From: Clostridia bacterium
Lineage (GTDB): Bacteria > Bacillota > Clostridia > Oscillospirales > Butyricicoccaceae
Reading direction: 5' to 3'
DNA: 34,480 nt
NCBI GenBank assembly: GCA_017441945.1
Contig: JAFSBG010000045.1
Span: 1-34,480, forward strand
Part shown: positions 6,765 to 34,480 of the stretch, piece by piece
Layout of the letters: every line of letters starts with the position of its first letter
Position numbering within the stretch: position 1 is the stretch's first letter
Notes under the pieces: model-generated
The model's input: the letters and a program-made list of their open reading frames with translations, nothing else
What the model was told of the DNA's origin: nothing
The model's database searches: none
Program-made: the position numbers and the translations under genes

Positions 6765-6947
6765 CACGCAGTTTGATCACGGGACCAGAGAGCACTCTGG
6801 ACTACCATAGGAGCGCCGAGTGCGCGACCGGTGGCGAGTGCCACCGCACCCTATTTAATATTGTGGGTTCACTGACGAGCCTGCTCGTTAGGGTAAATTG
6901 GTTCGTTCCTCACAAATGGACACATTGGGGTGGGTTACATTTCTGGG
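6765..6947 (+). repeat. Long inverted repeat, left copy (183 bp)
   Basis: Matches the reverse complement of 34298-34480 over 183 positions with only scattered substitutions. It is itself a chain of hairpins: CCAGAG-agca-CTCTGG, GGTGGC-gagt-GCCACC and GACGAG-cctg-CTCGTT. The minus-strand frame through it shows no protein-like features. The match runs to the window edge, so the true repeat may be longer. Confidence 0.85.
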
Positions 6948-7023
6948 TATATTTTGATAAAATCGCAGGATTTGCATAGTGCAATTCATTATATAAATCA
7001 CACCACCGAAAGGATAAACATAT

Positions 7024-7675: not shown

Positions 7676-7751
7676 TTCTGCGGTGTAGGGATTTGGTACA
7701 CTCCACTTGTTAATCACATCAAAAATCAATACTGAAAAGGAGAGATATACT

Positions 7752-8918
7752 ATGATAGCTATTATCAACGCAAAGATTCTGACAGTCACAAACGGCACTA
7801 TCGAAAATGGTGCGCTTCTCGTCGAAGAAGGCAAAATTGCAGGCTACGGCGCTGACATTCAGATTCCTGAAGGCGCTGAAATCATCGATGCAAAGGGCGG
7901 CTGGCTCACTCCTGGCCTTATCGATGCTCACACTCATATGTGCGTTTTCGGCGAGCCTAACACAATGCCTGGCCTGCAGGGCGACGGCAACGAAGGATCT
8001 TCACCTATTACTCCTGAGCTTGACGCTGTTTATGCCCTCAATCCACACGATATTTCTATAGAAAAGGTGCGTAATGCAGGCTTCACAACCTGCTACACAG
8101 GTCCTGGCTCTGCCAATGTAATCGGCGGCACAGGCGTTACATTCAAGCTGAGAGGCAATTCTCCTGAAGAAATGGAAATCCCTGGCCACCGCCATATGAA
8201 GATGGCTCTCGGCGAAAATCCAAAACGCTTCTACGGCACAAACAAGAAGGTTGCTCCTTGGACACGTATGGGCACAGGCGCTCTTCTCCGCAAGTGGCTC
8301 CAGATGGCAAAGAATTATTCCGATGAGCTTATCGCTTTTGAAAAGGGCGAAGGCAAGAAGCCTAACTACGATTTCCAGCTCGAAGCTCTCGTGCCTGTTG
8401 TACGCGGCGAAATGAAGGCAAGAATCCACGCTCACCGCGCTGACGATATCGAAACAGCTATCCGCATTTCCCACGAATTCAACCTTGATTTCTCGGTTGA
8501 ACACGCAACGGAAGGCTATAAAATCATCGACATCTTAAAGGAAAACAAGGTCGATGTCATCATTGGTCCGCTCATTCCAAGCTGGGCTAAGATGGAAACA
8601 TGGGGCAGAATGCCTGAAACAGCAGGCGTATTAAACGAAGCGGGCATCAATGTTATGCTGACAGCCGACAAGAGCTCTGCTACTGCTCATCTTCCAATGG
8701 AAATCGGCTACTGCATGGCTCGCGGCTTAAAGTTTGACGATGCTCTTGAAGGCATCACAATCCGCCCTGCACGATTCCTCGGCGTAGGCGATAAGGTCGG
8801 CTCCATCGAAATCGGCAAGGATGCTGACATTGCGATTTTCAACGGCAATCCATTTGAAAACTTCACACTCTGCAAGCTGACAATGATTGACGGCGTAGTT
8901 TACAAGAACGAATTATAA
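7752..8918 (+). CDS. Amidohydrolase-superfamily enzyme, copy 1 of 4
   Basis: 388 residues, cytoplasmic, related to the imidazolonepropionase-like amidohydrolases (COG1228 type). Metal ligands of the barrel are visible: H60 and H62 in IDAHTHM, H226/H228 in [10 protein letters not shown]251 in SVEHATEGYK and D306 in LTADKSS. N- and C-terminal beta strands form the usual urease-like sandwich ([10 protein letters not shown]...; [14 protein letters not shown]). The substrate is unknown; a cyclic amide or a small peptide amide is plausible. AAGGAG precedes the ATG at 7752. Unlike copies 2-4 it has no TTGACA promoter in view, and its codons are more mixed (GCA/GCG as well as GCT). Its own terminator separates it from the aminotransferase. 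Confidence 0.9.
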   Translation: MIAIINAKILTVTNGTIENGALLVEEGKIAGYGADIQIPEGAEIIDAKGGWLTPGLIDAHTHMCVFGEPNTMPGLQGDGNEGSSPITPELDAVYALNPHDISIEKVRNAGFTTCYTGPGSANVIGGTGVTFKLRGNSPEEMEIPGHRHMKMALGENPKRFYGTNKKVAPWTRMGTGALLRKWLQMAKNYSDELIAFEKGEGKKPNYDFQLEALVPVVRGEMKARIHAHRADDIETAIRISHEFNLDFSVEHATEGYKIIDILKENKVDVIIGPLIPSWAKMETWGRMPETAGVLNEAGINVMLTADKSSATAHLPMEIGYCMARGLKFDDALEGITIRPARFLGVGDKVGSIEIGKDADIAIFNGNPFENFTLCKLTMIDGVVYKNEL

Positions 8919-11203: not shown

Positions 11204-11230
11204 GTAGGGGCGGGTTTCCATGCCCGCCCG
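11204..11230 (+). repeat. Family A REP
   Basis: GTAG, then GGGCGGG-tttccatg-CCCGCCC. Just downstream of the M20 hydrolase stop codon. Confidence 0.8.
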
Positions 11231-13986: not shown

Positions 13987-14013
13987 GTAGGGGCGGGTTT
14001 CCATGCCCGCCCG
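13987..14013 (+). repeat. Family A REP
   Basis: GTAG plus GGGCGGG-tttccatg-CCCGCCC, identical in core to the copies at 11204 and 24859. Confidence 0.8.
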
Positions 14014-14312: not shown

Positions 14313-14387
14313 TATCATAGGGTACGGTGGAAATGCTGTCCTGCTATGAAAAACAACAATAAATATGACATAAAGGAGAAACTTATC

Positions 14388-15554
14388 ATGATTGCTATTA
14401 TCAATGCTAAGATCGTTACTGTTACTAACGGTACTATCGAAAAGGGCGCTCTTCTTGTTGAAGACGGCAAGATCAAGGCTTACGGCGCTGACATTCAGAT
14501 CCCTGAAGGCGCTGAAATTATCGACGCTAAGGGCGGCTGGCTCACACCAGGTCTTATCGATGTACATACACATATCTCCACATTCAATGAACCAAACACA
14601 ATGCCTGGTCTCCAGAACGACGGCAACGAAGGTTCTTCCCCAATCACACCGGAAATCCGTGGTCTTGATGCTCTCAACCCACACGACCCAGCTATCGAAA
14701 ATGTTCGTAAGGCTGGCTTTACAACTTGCTACACAGGCCCTGGTTCTGCTAACCTCATCGGCGGCTCCGGTCTTACATTCAAGCTCCGCGGCAACGACCC
14801 TGAAGAAATGGAAATCCCTGGCCACCGCCACATGAAGTTCGCTCTCGGCGAAAATCCTAAGCGTTTCTACGGCTCCAAGGGCAAGGCTCCATGGACAAGA
14901 ATGGCTTCCGGCGCTATGATCCGCAAGCAGCTCATTCTTGCAAAGCAGTATTCTGACGCTCTCCTCGCTTATGAAAAGGGCGAAGGCGAAAAGCCAAAGT
15001 ATGACTTCCAGCTCGAAGCTCTCGTTCCAGTAGTACGCGGCGAAATGAAGGCAAGAATCCATGCACACCGTGCTGACGATATTCTCACAGCTATCCGCAT
15101 CGGTACAGAATTCAATCTCGACTACTCCATCGAGCACTGCACAGAAGGCTACAAGATCATCAAGGAACTCCAGGCTGTCAAGGCTGACGTTATCCTTGGT
15201 CCTCTTATGACAGGCACAGCGAAGATGGAAATCTGGGGCGGCAAGAAGGAAAACCCTGGCATCCTCAACGCAGCAGGCGACATCAACGTTATGCTGACAG
15301 CTGACAGCCAGTCCGCAACAGCTATGCTCCCTGTTCATATCGGTATCTGCATGGCTCACGGTCTTAAGGAACAGGATGCTTTTGAAGGCGTTACAATCCG
15401 CTCCGCTAAGTTCCTCGGCATCGACGATAAGGTCGGTTCCATCGAAGTTGGCAAGGATGCTGACATCGCAATCTTCGACGGTCACCCATTCTGCAACTTC
15501 ACACGTTGTAAGCTTACAATGATCGACGGCGTTGTATATCACAATACTTTGTAA
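14388..15554 (+). CDS. Amidohydrolase-superfamily enzyme, copy 2 of 4
   Basis: 388 residues, the same family and metal-ligand set as the gene at 7752 ([33 protein letters not shown]). It differs in the region after the first metal motif ([12 protein letters not shown] instead of [12 protein letters not shown]) and has [14 protein letters not shown] where copy 1 has KKVAPWTRMGTGAL. These stretches may line the substrate pocket. The frame is open upstream to 14241, but GGAG and the promoter fix the start at 14388. Codon use is very biased (GCT, CTC, ATC, GGC, AAG), as expected for a highly expressed gene. A 10-bp-stem terminator follows. Confidence 0.92.
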
Positions 15555-24858: not shown

Positions 24859-24885
24859 GTAGGGGCGGGTTTCCATGCCCGCCCG
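24859..24885 (+). repeat. Family A REP
   Basis: GTAG plus GGGCGGG-tttccatg-CCCGCCC. It lies 24 bp after an inverted family C copy. Confidence 0.8.
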
Positions 24886-27903: not shown

Positions 27904-27930
27904 GTAGGGGCGGGTCTCTGTGCCCGCCCG
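27904..27930 (+). repeat. Family A REP
   Basis: GTAG plus GGGCGGG-tctctgtg-CCCGCCC, followed by CACGGCACGCCGTGTCCC as at 26302. Confidence 0.75.
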
Positions 27931-28142: not shown

Positions 28143-28227
28143 TAAATTAGAGAACAAGGCGGGAATATTTTTCCACGCTTCTCACATATTATGTTTTGAA
28201 TCTATTGCAAAAGGAGATTTGATAACC

Positions 28228-29391
28228 ATGATTGCTATTATCAATGCTAAAATCGTAACAGTTACTAACGGCACAATCGAAAACGGCGTTCTTCTCGTTG
28301 AAGACGGCAAGATCGCCCATTACGGCGCTGATGTTGCAGTTCCGGAAGGTGCTGAAATTATAGATGCAAAGGGCGGCTGGCTCACACCTGGTTTCATCGA
28401 TGTACATACTCATATGTGCACATTCGGCGAACCTAACACAATGCCTGGTCTTCAGGGCGACGGCAATGAAGGCTCCTCCCCAATCACACCTGAAATCCGC
28501 GCTATCGAAGCTCTCAACCCACACGATATGTCTGTTGAAAAGGTTCGTAACGCAGGCTTTACAACTTGCTACACAGGTCCTGGCTCCGCTAACATCATCG
28601 GCGGTACAGGCGTTACATTCAAGCTCCGCGGCAACTCCCCTGAAGAAATGGAAATCCCAGGCCACCGTCATATGAAGATGGCTCTCGGCGAAAATCCAAA
28701 GCGCTTCTACGGCTCCAAGGGTATCGCTCCATGGACACGTATGGGCACAGGCGCTATGCTCCGCAAGCAGCTCCAGCTTGCTAAGAACTACTCCGATGAA
28801 CTCATCGAAGCAGAAAAGAACGGCACAGCTAAGCCAAAGTGGGATATGCAGCTCGAAGCTCTCGTTCCAGTAGTACGCGGCGAAATGAAGGCAAGAATCC
28901 ACGCTCACCGTGCTGACGATATTCTCACAGCTATCCGCATTGCTAAGGAATTCAACCTCGACTATTCCGTTGAACACTGCACAGAAGGCTATAAGATCGT
29001 TAAGGAACTCCAGGCTGCAAAGGTTGACGTTGTTGTAGGTCCTCTTATGATGGGTACTATGAAGATGGAAATCTGGGGCACAAAGCAGGAAACACCTGGC
29101 ATCCTCAATGAAGCTGGCATCAATGTAATGCTCACTCAGGATACAGGCTCCCAGACAGCTCTCCTCCCAATGTACATCGGCTTCTGCATGGCTCGCGGCC
29201 TTAAGGAACAGGATGCATTTGAAGGTATCACAATCCGCGCTGCTAAGTTCCTCGGCATCGGCGATCAGGTCGGTTCTATCGAAGTTGGCAAGGACGCTGA
29301 CATCGCTATCTTTGACGGCCATCCATTCTCTAACTTCACACTCTGTAAGCTTACAATGATCGATGGCGTTGTTTACAAGAACGAATTGTAA
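28228..29391 (+). CDS. Amidohydrolase-superfamily enzyme, copy 3 of 4
   Basis: 387 residues, same architecture as the genes at 7752 and 14388. The metal motifs are [26 protein letters not shown] and LTQDTGS; Q replaces A before the aspartate, and the D itself is kept. In the N-terminal half it is closest to copy 1 ([31 protein letters not shown]). In the second half it shares EQDAFEGITIRAAKFLGI with copies 2 and 4. AAAGGAG lies before the ATG at 28228; a longer open frame from 28045 contains the promoter and is rejected. Codons are strongly biased. A GC-rich terminator separates it from the RAYT gene. Confidence 0.92.
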   Translation: MIAIINAKIVTVTNGTIENGVLLVEDGKIAHYGADVAVPEGAEIIDAKGGWLTPGFIDVHTHMCTFGEPNTMPGLQGDGNEGSSPITPEIRAIEALNPHDMSVEKVRNAGFTTCYTGPGSANIIGGTGVTFKLRGNSPEEMEIPGHRHMKMALGENPKRFYGSKGIAPWTRMGTGAMLRKQLQLAKNYSDELIEAEKNGTAKPKWDMQLEALVPVVRGEMKARIHAHRADDILTAIRIAKEFNLDYSVEHCTEGYKIVKELQAAKVDVVVGPLMMGTMKMEIWGTKQETPGILNEAGINVMLTQDTGSQTALLPMYIGFCMARGLKEQDAFEGITIRAAKFLGIGDQVGSIEVGKDADIAIFDGHPFSNFTLCKLTMIDGVVYKNEL

Positions 29392-29510: not shown

Positions 29511-29987
29511 ATGACATTACCGCAGAGAAAATCGCCAAGACTGAAAGACTTTGATTACAGCACAAACGGAAAGTATTTCGTCACAGTGTGTACCCACGAA
29601 AAAAAGAAAATATTATCCTCTATAGAATATGTAGGGGAGGGTCTCTGCGCCCTCCCGCAAATAAAGCTTACCGAAATCGGTGAAATTGTGGAAGAAAGCA
29701 TAAACTTTGTCGATAAAAATACCGAGGGTGTTGTAATTGAAAAGTATATCATAATGCCTAATCATATCCATCTGTTGATAGAACTTACGGCGGGCGGGCA
29801 TGGAAACCCGCCCCTACAGGATGTGGTTGGAAGAATTAAGTCTTATACGACATACAGATATGGCGGTAGGCTCTGGCAGCGTTCATATCACGACCATTGT
29901 GTGCGGTCGGAGGGAGATTATCTGAAAATCTGGACTTATATTGACAGCAATCACCAGAAATGGGATAAGGATTTATATTATATTTAA
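29511..29987 (+). CDS. RAYT: REP-associated tyrosine transposase (IS200-like, Y1 HUH family)
   Basis: 158 residues. The HUH metal motif is H85-I86-H87 in MPNHIHLL. The family signature continues with LWQRSYHDH and then VRSEGDYLKIWTYIDSNHQK, in which Y137 is my best candidate for the nucleophile (Y143 is the alternative). RAYTs cut and join single-stranded DNA at REP hairpins and are single-copy domesticated relatives of IS200 transposases. Two GTAG-type REP palindromes lie inside the gene in frame, encoding VGEGLCALP (residues 41-49) and GGHGNPPLQ (95-103). Both fall in loops, the second just after the HUH strand. The start at 29511 follows GGAGG at 29492. It ends 14 bases before the alkyltransferase ATG. 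Confidence 0.9.
   Translation: MTLPQRKSPRLKDFDYSTNGKYFVTVCTHEKKKILSSIEYVGEGLCALPQIKLTEIGEIVEESINFVDKNTEGVVIEKYIIMPNHIHLLIELTAGGHGNPPLQDVVGRIKSYTTYRYGGRLWQRSYHDHCVRSEGDYLKIWTYIDSNHQKWDKDLYYI
29631..29658 (+). repeat. REP palindrome inside the RAYT gene (A/D type)
   Basis: GTAG plus GGGAGGG-tctctgcg-CCCTCCC. It is read in frame as residues 41-49 of the transposase. The stem is the one used by family D. Confidence 0.8.
29791..29817 (-). repeat. Family A REP inside the RAYT gene, inverted
   Basis: CGGGCGGGCATGGAAACCCG then CCCCTAC, the exact reverse complement of the A core. Read in frame as residues 94-102 or so. Confidence 0.85.
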
Positions 29988-30001: not shown

Positions 30002-30463
30002 ATGCGTCATTATATTTATATGAACTCGCCTGTGGGGATGCTGACGCTGGGCGAGGAAAACGGCTATATCACCCATATTTTGTTCGGCAAGCGGCAGCTT
30101 GAGGGGTATTTTCTCGAAAATGACCTGCTGAGCATGGCGAAAAGCCAGCTTAACGAGTATTTTGACGGCGTGCGAAAGAACTTTGCTCTGCCGCTTATGC
30201 CTGAGGGCACCGATTTCCAGAAAAGTGTCTGGCGTGCGCTGACCGATATTGGCTACGGCACCACCGCAACTTATGGGCAGATTGCCGAAATGATAGGCGC
30301 ACCTAAGGCGGCGAGGGCTGTCGGTATGGCGAATAATAAAAATCCTGTCGCCATCGTTGTGCCGTGACACCGCATTGTGGGAGCGGACGGCTCTCTGACA
30401 GGCTTTGCCGGCGGCATCGACACCAAGCGTTTTCTGCTTGCTCTTGAAGAAGAAAATATGTAA
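30002..30463 (+). CDS. ogt: Methylated-DNA--protein-cysteine methyltransferase with in-frame TGA at the catalytic position (predicted selenoprotein, or pseudogene)
   Basis: Read through one TGA, the frame is 153 residues plus TAA, normal for a small Ogt-type suicide enzyme that takes alkyl groups off O6-guanine. DNA-binding and base-flipping residues are present: Y91 ([10 protein letters not shown]), arginine finger R105 (KAARAVG) and hinge N114 ([11 protein letters not shown]). The acceptor motif should be PCHR; here codon 122 is TGA, giving P-(TGA)[16 protein letters not shown]. Nothing else in the gene is damaged, and the part after the TGA is fully family-like. A SECIS-like hairpin follows 17 nt after the TGA. 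Selenocysteine would be an excellent nucleophile. A simple TGC-to-TGA mutation, leaving an inactive 121-residue product, is the alternative. GGGAGG precedes the ATG; it may be co-transcribed with the RAYT gene. Confidence 0.85.
30376..30400 (+). promoter_or_regulatory. Candidate bacterial SECIS element
   Basis: GGGAGC (30379-30384), loop GGACG (30385-30389), GCTCTC (30390-30395): six pairs including one G-U. The outer TGT (30376-30378) can pair with ACA (30398-30400) across a two-base bulge. The loop begins 17 nt after the TGA at 30365-30367 and starts with GG, as does the E. coli fdhF loop (GGUCU) as I remember it. Confidence 0.6.
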
Positions 30464-30887: not shown

Positions 30888-30908
30888 AATCAAAAGGAGA
30901 GATATCCC

Positions 30909-32072
30909 ATGATTGCTATTATCAATGCTAAAATCGTAACTATTACTAACGGTACTATCGAAAACGGCGTTCTTCTCGTTGAAGAAGGCAAGATCAAGGC
31001 TTATGGCGCAGATGTTCAGGTGCCTGCTGGCGCTGAAATCATCGACGCTAAGGGCGGCTGGCTCACACCTGGCTTTATCGATGTACATACACATATGTCC
31101 ACATTCGGCGAACCTAACACAAACCCAGGTCTCCGCGGCGACGGCAATGAAATGTCCTCCCCTATCGTTCCTGAAATCCGTGCTATCGACGCTCTCAACC
31201 CACACGACCCATCTATCGAAGCTGTTCGTAACGCAGGTTTCACAACTTGCTATACAGGCCCTGGCTCCGGTAACGTATGCGGCGGTACAGGCGTTACATT
31301 CAAGCTCCGCGGCAACACAGCTGAAGAAATGGAAATCCCAGGCCATCGCCACATGAAGTTCGCTCTCGGCGAAAATCCAAAGCGTAACTACGGCGCTCGC
31401 AACCAGATGCCTATGACACGTATGGGTATCGCTGCTACATTCCGTAAGCTCCTCACAAACGCTAAGGCATACTCCGATGAACTTCTTGAAGCTGAAAAGA
31501 ACGGCACACCAAAGCCAAAGCACGACTTCCAGCTCGAAGCTCTCGTTCCAGTAGTTCGCGGCGAAATGAAGGCTCGTATCCACGCTCACAGAGCTGACGA
31601 TATCATCACAGCTATCCGTATCGCTCACGAATTCAACCTCGACTTCTCGGTTGAACACGTAACAGAAGGCTACAAGATCATCAAGGAACTCAAGGAAAAC
31701 AACGTTGACTGTATCGTTGGTCCACTTCTTATGGGTCCTTCCAAGATGGAAATCTGGGGCTGCCGTCAGGATACACCAGGCATCCTCAACGATGCCGGCA
31801 TCAATGTAATGCTCACAGCTGACACAGGCTCCCAGACAGCTCATCTCCCAATGCACATCGGTTTCTGCATCGCTCGCGGTCTTAAGGAACAGGACGCATT
31901 TGAAGGCGTAACAATCCGCGCTGCAAAGCTTCTCGGCATCGACGATATGGTTGGTTCCATCGAAGTTGGCAAGGACGCTGACCTTGCAATTTTCGACGGC
32001 TTCCCATTCTCCAACCTTACACTCTGTAAGATGACAATGATCGACGGCGTCGTTTATAAGAACGAATTGTAA
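30909..32072 (+). CDS. Amidohydrolase-superfamily enzyme, copy 4 of 4
   Basis: 387 residues, with metal motifs [26 protein letters not shown] and LTADTGS. It departs most from the others in probable pocket regions: GEPNTNPGLRGDGNEMSS, GSGNVCGGTGV and NYGARNQMPMTRMGIAATF. This suggests a different substrate preference. C-terminal motifs ([20 protein letters not shown]) are as in its paralogues. GGAG precedes the ATG at 30909; the longer open frame from 30684 crosses the hairpin array and promoter. Codon use is highly biased (GCT, ATC, CTC, AAC). A terminator follows. Confidence 0.92.
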   Translation: MIAIINAKIVTITNGTIENGVLLVEEGKIKAYGADVQVPAGAEIIDAKGGWLTPGFIDVHTHMSTFGEPNTNPGLRGDGNEMSSPIVPEIRAIDALNPHDPSIEAVRNAGFTTCYTGPGSGNVCGGTGVTFKLRGNTAEEMEIPGHRHMKFALGENPKRNYGARNQMPMTRMGIAATFRKLLTNAKAYSDELLEAEKNGTPKPKHDFQLEALVPVVRGEMKARIHAHRADDIITAIRIAHEFNLDFSVEHVTEGYKIIKELKENNVDCIVGPLLMGPSKMEIWGCRQDTPGILNDAGINVMLTADTGSQTAHLPMHIGFCIARGLKEQDAFEGVTIRAAKLLGIDDMVGSIEVGKDADLAIFDGFPFSNLTLCKMTMIDGVVYKNEL

Positions 32073-33978: not shown

Positions 33979-34047
33979 CAATCCCTCCGTCACTGCACAG
34001 GGGAGGAGTTTCGCCTCCTGCGGGCGGGCGCGGAGACCCGCCCCTAC
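33979..34047. repeat. Truncated family B repeat next to an inverted family A REP
   Basis: ACAATCCCTCCGTCAC then GCACAGGGGAGG, with the central part missing; then GGAG-tttcg-CTCC; then CGGGCGGGCGCGGAGACCCG followed by CCCCTAC (34021-34047), an inverted A REP. Confidence 0.65.
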
Positions 34048-34247: not shown

Positions 34248-34297
34248 GGGTGTTTTGTAGAGACAAATCGAAAATATTACGATTTAAACAAGGTTTC

Positions 34298-34480
34298 CCC
34301 AGAAATGTAACCCGCCCCAGCCTGTCAATATGTGAGGAACGAACCAATTTACCCTAACGAGCAGGCTCGTCAGGGAACCCACAAGATTAAATAGGGTGCG
34401 GTGGCACTCGCCACCGGTCGCGCACTCGGCGCTCCTATGGGAGTCCAGAGTGCCCTCTGGTCCCGTGATCAAACTGCGTG
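34298..34480 (-). repeat. Long inverted repeat, right copy (183 bp, cut by window end)
   Basis: Reverse complement of 6765-6947 with scattered substitutions and no visible gaps. Hairpins with loops CAGG, ACTC and GCC-type are kept; one arm differs (CCAGAG-tgcc-CTCTGG against agca in the left copy). Confidence 0.85.

Follow-up and report, generated by a model that had tools for sequence, protein, structure and literature searches.

The RAYT gene and its surroundings

The window, that is, the whole stretch of 34,480 nucleotides of a Clostridia bacterium that was analysed, carries at 29511-29987 of the forward strand a gene for a 158-residue protein, which is identified as a RAYT (TnpAREP-like, Y1/HUH) by the list of open reading frames, family scans, invariant residues and a fold match. 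As is characteristic of RAYTs, the protein combines an HUH motif (H85-I86-H87; codons at 29763-29771, +) with a single catalytic tyrosine, Y143, in a Y---N context with N147; H85, H87, Y143 and N147 are invariant in both alignments (A1 and A2). The Y1_Tnp profile matches with 24.2 bits, just above its cut-off of 23, and the NF047646 REP_Tyr_transpos profile with 65.3 bits, below its cut-off of 80. By sequence profile, the nearest solved structure is that of E. coli TnpAREP (4er8, E 9e-11). An AlphaFold model (mean pLDDT 86) gives IS200/IS605 transposases and 4er8 as the best Foldseek matches (E 2e-7 to 9e-7), with TM values of 0.65/0.62 against 4er8. The motif WQRSYHDHCVR (29874-29906, +) contains, in the profile alignment, the equivalents of the GTAG-contacting residues W94, Q95, E100 (D in the window protein), H101 and R104 of the E. 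coli enzyme, whose roles are described in the main text of Quentin et al. (2018; PMC6006769) and in PMC8266576.

Two inverted GTAG REPs, presumably cognate and also dispersed genome-wide, as expected for a RAYT, are represented by a pair inside the gene and by 151 copies in the genome. Judged by its features, the gene is placed in subclass 2.4 (RAYT group 4): it is without a C-terminal extension, has a variable segment between HUH and Y and harbors in-frame REPs. The genome possesses six RAYT loci (L001-L006, L001 being the window gene) and one fragment. An autonomous IS200/IS605 insertion sequence was considered and rejected, since the remaining copies, at different loci of the genome, share 45-52% identity and include no near-identical one. 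One paralogue, L006 (G000:C151:8507-8996; G000 denotes the window genome, G001 and G002 the other genomes of the genus), is apparently broken, with frame breaks inside or just after its first internal REP.

Directly downstream of the RAYT gene, an O6-methylguanine-DNA methyltransferase gene is found at 30002-30463 (+; Pfam match of 120 bits with TGA read through). Its in-frame TGA (30365-30367) occupies the position of the catalytic cysteine (P-U-H-R) and is followed by a short stem-loop, and selB is detected above the cut-off in this genome; the product is probably a selenocysteine-containing Ogt. Four amidohydrolase-like paralogues, 67-85% alike at the DNA level, lie within 25 kb (7751-8888, 14387-15524, 28227-29361, and 30908-32042), and two of them bracket the RAYT and Ogt genes. 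The window also contains a 209-nt inverted repeat (6765-6973 and 34272-34480, 91% complementary), the second arm of which is the contig end.

Two REPs within the reading frame

The first-pass annotation of this DNA had reported two GTAG palindromes in the RAYT gene, and both are present in frame within the ORF. Internal REP 1 (29631-29658, +; further designated F) consists of GTAG and a 7-bp stem GGGAGGG/CCCTCCC, reads GTAG-GGGAGGG-TCTCTGCG-CCCTCCC-GC and encodes residues 41-50 (VGEGLCALPQ). Internal REP 2 (29791-29817, -; designated R) is inverted, has a 7-bp stem GGGCGGG/CCCGCCC, reads GTAG-GGGCGGG-TTTCCATG-CCCGCCC-G on its own strand and encodes residues 94-103. Each of them folds alone into a 7-bp hairpin immediately after GTAG, and the HUH codons are located between them. 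According to the structure model, residues 41-50 form a turn or loop between strands 36-41 and 48-53, while residues 94-103 form a loop between the HUH strand (85-92) and helix alphaC (102-117), in agreement with the earlier reading of both segments as loops of the protein.

Conservation of the pair among homologues

Both internal GTAG hairpin sites were found, at the same two places and in opposite orientation, in 66 of 81 non-redundant full-length homologues (three have the first site only, six the second only, and six neither), while 20 synonymous-codon shuffles gave 0-1 of 81. Among all 256 possible tetramer feet, GTAG ranks first with 136 hits in the 81 homologues; shifted tetramers overlapping it follow (TGTA 88, TAGG 81, CGTA 46, AGGG 22), and the best unrelated tetramer reaches 15. 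These two controls rule out chance palindromes. In all six RAYT loci of the window genome, HUH is preceded by a forward REP and followed by a reverse one, the pairs being mostly of different types. The GTAG of the first REP is translated as Val-Gly in 68 of 70 genes, and two main frames are used for the second REP; the resulting peptides vary widely (distinct in 53/70 genes at F and in 63/70 at R), and therefore it is the DNA hairpin, rather than the peptide, that is conserved. A subclade of four genes (L057, L070, L082, and L098) has both REPs after HUH, the reverse one first (CTAC...GTAG), with a loop of the ATTTAT type.

According to the first-pass annotation, the two segments would have to be regarded as ancestral protein sequence if all homologues shared them. 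Our comparison revealed that the sites are common and their sequence is not: the REP type varies from gene to gene, even between paralogues of the same genome, and some homologues (L012, L033, L063) lack internal REPs and carry REPs in their flanks instead. The segments are therefore not ancestral protein sequence. As to the suggestion that the targets of the enzyme have entered its own gene, it stands in so far as the in-frame palindromes are probable targets; the arrangement is, however, no private feature of the window gene, being the rule in this RAYT subclass.

Within-gene matching and joint change

The stems of F and R are 0.90 identical within a gene vs 0.47 between genes, which is above all 10,000 permutations (maximum 0.58). 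Between genes, F-R, F-F, and R-R similarities are about equal at every level of protein divergence, and all of them decay with divergence. Among 34 disjoint pairs of related genes, joint changes at F and R were counted for 54 stem positions, 40 of which show the same change; seven positions changed at F alone and 16 at R alone, and the expected number of joint changes is 20.9 (p 5e-27). The loops of these 34 pairs, like the stems, change jointly at F and R.

In some relatives, the F and R subtypes appear swapped between the sites (L167 vs L190/L191; L102 vs L077/L099), as might result from inversion or from dispersed copies taking the place of the internal ones.

Dispersed REPs

The REP census comprised 234 kb of G000 and was complemented by genome-wide pattern counts. 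The 234 kb contain 82 dispersed GTAG hairpins starting with GG. Internal REP 1 has four exact copies and 16 within two edits and internal REP 2 has 13 exact copies, as the first-pass annotation had anticipated when relating both palindromes to intergenic families; REPs of the other RAYT paralogues match smaller dispersed families. In the window itself, REPs identical to internal REP 2 are located at 11204-11229, 13987-14012 and 24859-24884 (all +), a REP of the same family combining a REP 1-like loop with the GGGCGGG stem of REP 2 at 27904-27929 (+), and one more member of this family at 34022-34047 (-). Dispersed REPs are often arranged as head-to-head dimers (CTAC, about 23 nt, GTAG; e.g., G000:C162:59496-59570), several of which consist of one REP-1-type and one REP-2-type element.

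A pattern covering both REP types of the window has 151 matches in G000 vs none for the reversed control, 51 in G001 and 132 in G002, and none in the other genomes searched of the family and order. The REP type of L015, a RAYT gene of a sister species, is found 38 times in G001 vs eight and two times in the other two genomes of the genus, and the type of L022 is equally common in G000 (17) and G002 (14). Thus the abundance of REPs tracks the local RAYT allele only partly: a strict correspondence holds for the window and L015 types and fails for the L022 type.

REPs inside and outside the gene

The comparison of internal and flanking REPs was performed on a wider set of 104 genes, including those from Chloroflexota, Bacteroidota and distant members of the phylum. 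Internal REPs are present in both orientations in 78 genes, as F only in three, as R only in eight, and absent from 15. The number of REPs within 500 nt is 4.3 for genes without internal REPs and 0.5 for genes with both. An F-oriented REP lies no farther than 500 nt upstream of 16/23 genes lacking internal F vs 9/81 of the others (p about 1e-7), and an R-oriented REP lies downstream of 14/18 genes lacking internal R vs 11/86 of the others (p about 1e-7); this contrast may in part reflect shared ancestry, because the unrooted gene tree is poorly resolved (7/101 inner branches starred) and a branch-independent test, with 5-6 usable pairs only, did not reach significance. In L051 and L092, F is inside and a REP of the same type follows 57-60 nt downstream; in L164 and L122, R is inside and the same REP type is found upstream; L033 has none inside, and its flanks hold the REP types of the window gene. 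In L010 and L093, the internal REPs are decayed, and an F-oriented REP of similar type is situated 40-63 nt upstream. Most simply, the internal REPs can be taken for the two flanking REPs of a REPtron that were drawn into the ORF, although an unrooted tree does not prove in which direction the change went.

Probable block exchange at syntenic loci

The window gene and L015 occupy the same chromosomal locus, the upstream regions being 90% identical over 1179 nt. The two sequences can be aligned up to 15 nt before REP 1, the similarity is lost until 57 nt past REP 2, and it is regained from there into the downstream gene. By its N-terminus and C-terminus L015 is the nearest relative of the window gene, while by the core it ranks 48th of 103; the best core match of the window gene is L027, which has the same REP type as the window gene. 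In the case of L003 and L022, the flanks are 96% and 93% identical, and the RAYT centres and REP types differ. Syntenic pairs that share the REP type display no such valley of similarity. Considering the valleys in both pairs, the enzyme centre, the helix and both REPs have most likely been replaced together.

Coupling of the REP type to helix alphaC

In a regression, the between-gene similarity of REPs was explained by the protein identities of four segments. The alphaC segment (roughly 24 residues, from REP 2 to the WQ motif) yielded a standardised coefficient of 0.53, the null maximum being 0.105, and the other segments predicted the REP type with coefficients of about 0.03 or less. These coupling statistics single out the codons of residues 104-121, mostly helix alphaC, at 29820-29873 (+) as those of a putative REP-specificity helix. 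The inter-REP core, which the exchange between L001 and L015 had led us to expect as the specificity determinant, was not borne out, its coefficient across all genes being 0.01. Since this segment is linked to both REPs and yet uncoupled from their type, physical linkage alone does not explain the coupling of alphaC.

The single positions most informative of the REP type are, in descending order, 111, 107, 108, 114, and 112, all on one side of the helix. Positions 107, 108, 111 and 112 (G, R, S, and Y in the window protein) around the invariant K110 were used as a four-residue key. With relatives of >55% identity left out, the key predicted the REP type with a mean edit distance of 4.0. Random quadruples of columns not belonging to this helix averaged 7.64, the best of 300 reaching 6.2, and the opposite helix face gave 7.43; the key positions had been chosen after inspection of the columns in the same 69-70 genes. 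Applied to the flanking REPs of 22 genes outside the choice of positions, which is the only out-of-sample test among these, the same key gave 5.9 vs 8.0 (p 0.0009). In the distant homologue L132, the hairpin predicted by the key was found exactly. Examples of the correspondence are S-T-x-K-R-F with CGGCGTCCTCGACG, G-Y-x-K-M-N with TTCAYGAA, G-W-x-K-Y with GGGGTNNCCCC, and R-S-x-K-T with CGATGCCYWCATCG. In a profile alignment at about 20% identity, window position 111 aligns with K82 of E. coli TnpAREP, a residue of the DNA-binding helix alpha3 that contacts the REP (PMC8266576).

We put at even odds the stronger proposal that residues 107, 108, 111, and 112 make up a readable code for the REP hairpin, and that REP 1, the HUH core, REP 2 and the helix form one swappable, self-labelled block at a fixed chromosomal slot.

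Discussion

We suppose, with a probability of roughly three in four and on the grounds of sequence comparison, that the internal palindromes are the gene's own cognate REP pair, which was internalised, is inherited with the enzyme and is kept matched to its recognition helix. The inverted pair that flanks a canonical REPtron would in this case reside inside the ORF, at two sites coding for surface loops. The RAYT would bind the internal hairpins in single-stranded DNA; alphaC would recognise the upper stem and the loop, and the WQ...DH..R region would recognise GTAG. Recombination or transfer would move the enzyme and its targets together, because the targets and the helix that would recognise them alternate within a single short ORF, and this linkage could be of benefit. 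More speculatively than the rest of the scheme, the internal pair might act as a cis-linked seed for the copying of dispersed REPs. Two observations count against the scheme: REP abundance tracks the local RAYT allele only in part, and the subclade of L057, L070, L082 and L098 has the opposite layout, with both REPs after HUH. As for the role of the pair, seeding and linkage on the one hand or autoregulation on the other may be envisaged.

The published reading for the subclass, which the first-pass annotation had also listed, is simple tolerance: REPs would have landed by chance in two permissive loops and would persist as passive passengers. The placement of both sites in surface loops by the model, the diversity of the encoded peptides and the occurrence of REPs in unrelated genes as well (PMC3733652) agree with it, as does the opinion expressed in the main text of Quentin et al. 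(PMC6006769). Passengers, however, would hardly be expected at two fixed sites, in opposite orientation in most homologues and of the gene's own type, and further arguments against this reading are the match between the two REPs of a gene, their joint substitutions, the way in which flanking REPs complement missing internal ones and the coupling to one helix. The reading is disfavoured by these data, and we regard it as improbable. Under homogenisation, the matching would be a by-product without benefit: by gene conversion or RAYT-mediated exchange, the internal REPs would repeatedly be overwritten, either by dispersed REPs or one by the other. The apparent swaps of subtypes between relatives and the joint change of loops as well as stems speak for it, but several REP families coexist in one genome and yet each RAYT has its own type; besides, homogenisation alone leaves unexplained why alphaC is coupled to the REPs and the inter-REP segment is not. 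We consider it a less likely explanation.

Autoregulation seems unlikely to us; here the RAYT would restrict its own expression by binding to the hairpins of its mRNA or of its gene in single-stranded form, the pair being retained for that purpose. The hairpins do lie in the transcribed region and match the presumed target of the enzyme, and the mRNA folds more stably than shuffled sequences (z -3.6). However, REPs that are not internal lie tens to hundreds of nucleotides upstream or downstream, where they need not be transcribed, and are nevertheless of the same type; the known substrates of TnpAREP are single-stranded DNA, and the second hairpin would appear on the mRNA as the inverted strand (iREP), which TnpAREP neither binds nor processes (PMC8266576). 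Finally, inverted, nearly identical elements are complementary by construction, and F and R could have been kept alike in order to form a long-range stem with each other in mRNA or single-stranded DNA, not for separate recognition. This we find scarcely credible, as each REP is a stable hairpin alone, REPs outside the gene match equally well (L164, L122, L051, and L092), and, in the GACGAT type, F consistently has another loop than R. Autoregulation and drift-like homogenisation may, all the same, act alongside the recognition of a cognate internal pair. Self-targeting, which the first-pass annotation had suggested together with autoregulation at the mRNA level, is likewise conceivable.

Behind these observations stands the question of REP recognition by RAYTs and, where a genome has several REP families, of the RAYT responsible for each. 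If the internal REPs are indeed cognate, each gene of the subclass holds an enzyme together with its target, so that sequences by themselves would disclose many natural enzyme-target pairs, and simple swaps could test a code of four residues on one helix. In-frame REPs would then have to be viewed as coevolving target sites instead of tolerated inserts, and a route would be indicated by which a domesticated transposase can switch its specificity while retaining its substrate.

Comparison with known systems

E. coli TnpAREP (4er8; PMC8266576) shares with the window protein the HUH/Y core, the residues W94, Q95, H101 and R104, and K82 on alpha3, corresponding to window position 111. The two proteins are, however, about 20% identical, E100 is replaced by D in the window RAYT, the GTAG-contacting C-terminal tail of the E. 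coli enzyme is absent from it, and the E. coli REPs lie outside the gene. REPs and RPEs in other genes (PMC3733652) resemble the internal pair in being palindromic repeats translated in frame with the gene unbroken; those reside at scattered sites in unrelated host genes, whereas here the presumed cognate enzyme has them at fixed sites of its own gene.

In the description by Nunvar et al. (2010; PMC2817692), every RAYT gene has an inverted pair of REPs at its flanks, and these REPs coevolve with the RAYT. This canonical REPtron (REP-rayt-REP) has the same two inverted cognate REPs per rayt, the same REP-RAYT coevolution and cognate REPs abundant in the genome, but its pair flanks the ORF, whereas in the window gene the pair is inside. 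The closest likeness is to subclass 2.4, i.e., Y1/HUH RAYTs without a C-terminal extension, with a variable HUH-Y segment, in-frame GTAG REPs and stems starting with G-C, as characterized in the main text of Quentin et al. (PMC6006769). There, in-frame REPs inside tnpAREP genes of subclass 2.4 (RAYT group 4) are described as generally located between HuH and Y, in a peripheral region where the insertions probably have little impact on activity; that main text makes no mention of a second REP before HUH, of pairing in opposite orientation or of within-gene matching, nor does it refer to flanking REPs that complement the internal ones, to a coupling with alphaC or to exchange as a block. In-frame REPs in such genes were thus already known, while their pairing, matching, coupling to the helix and exchange go beyond the main text of these two papers (PMC6006769; PMC2817692).
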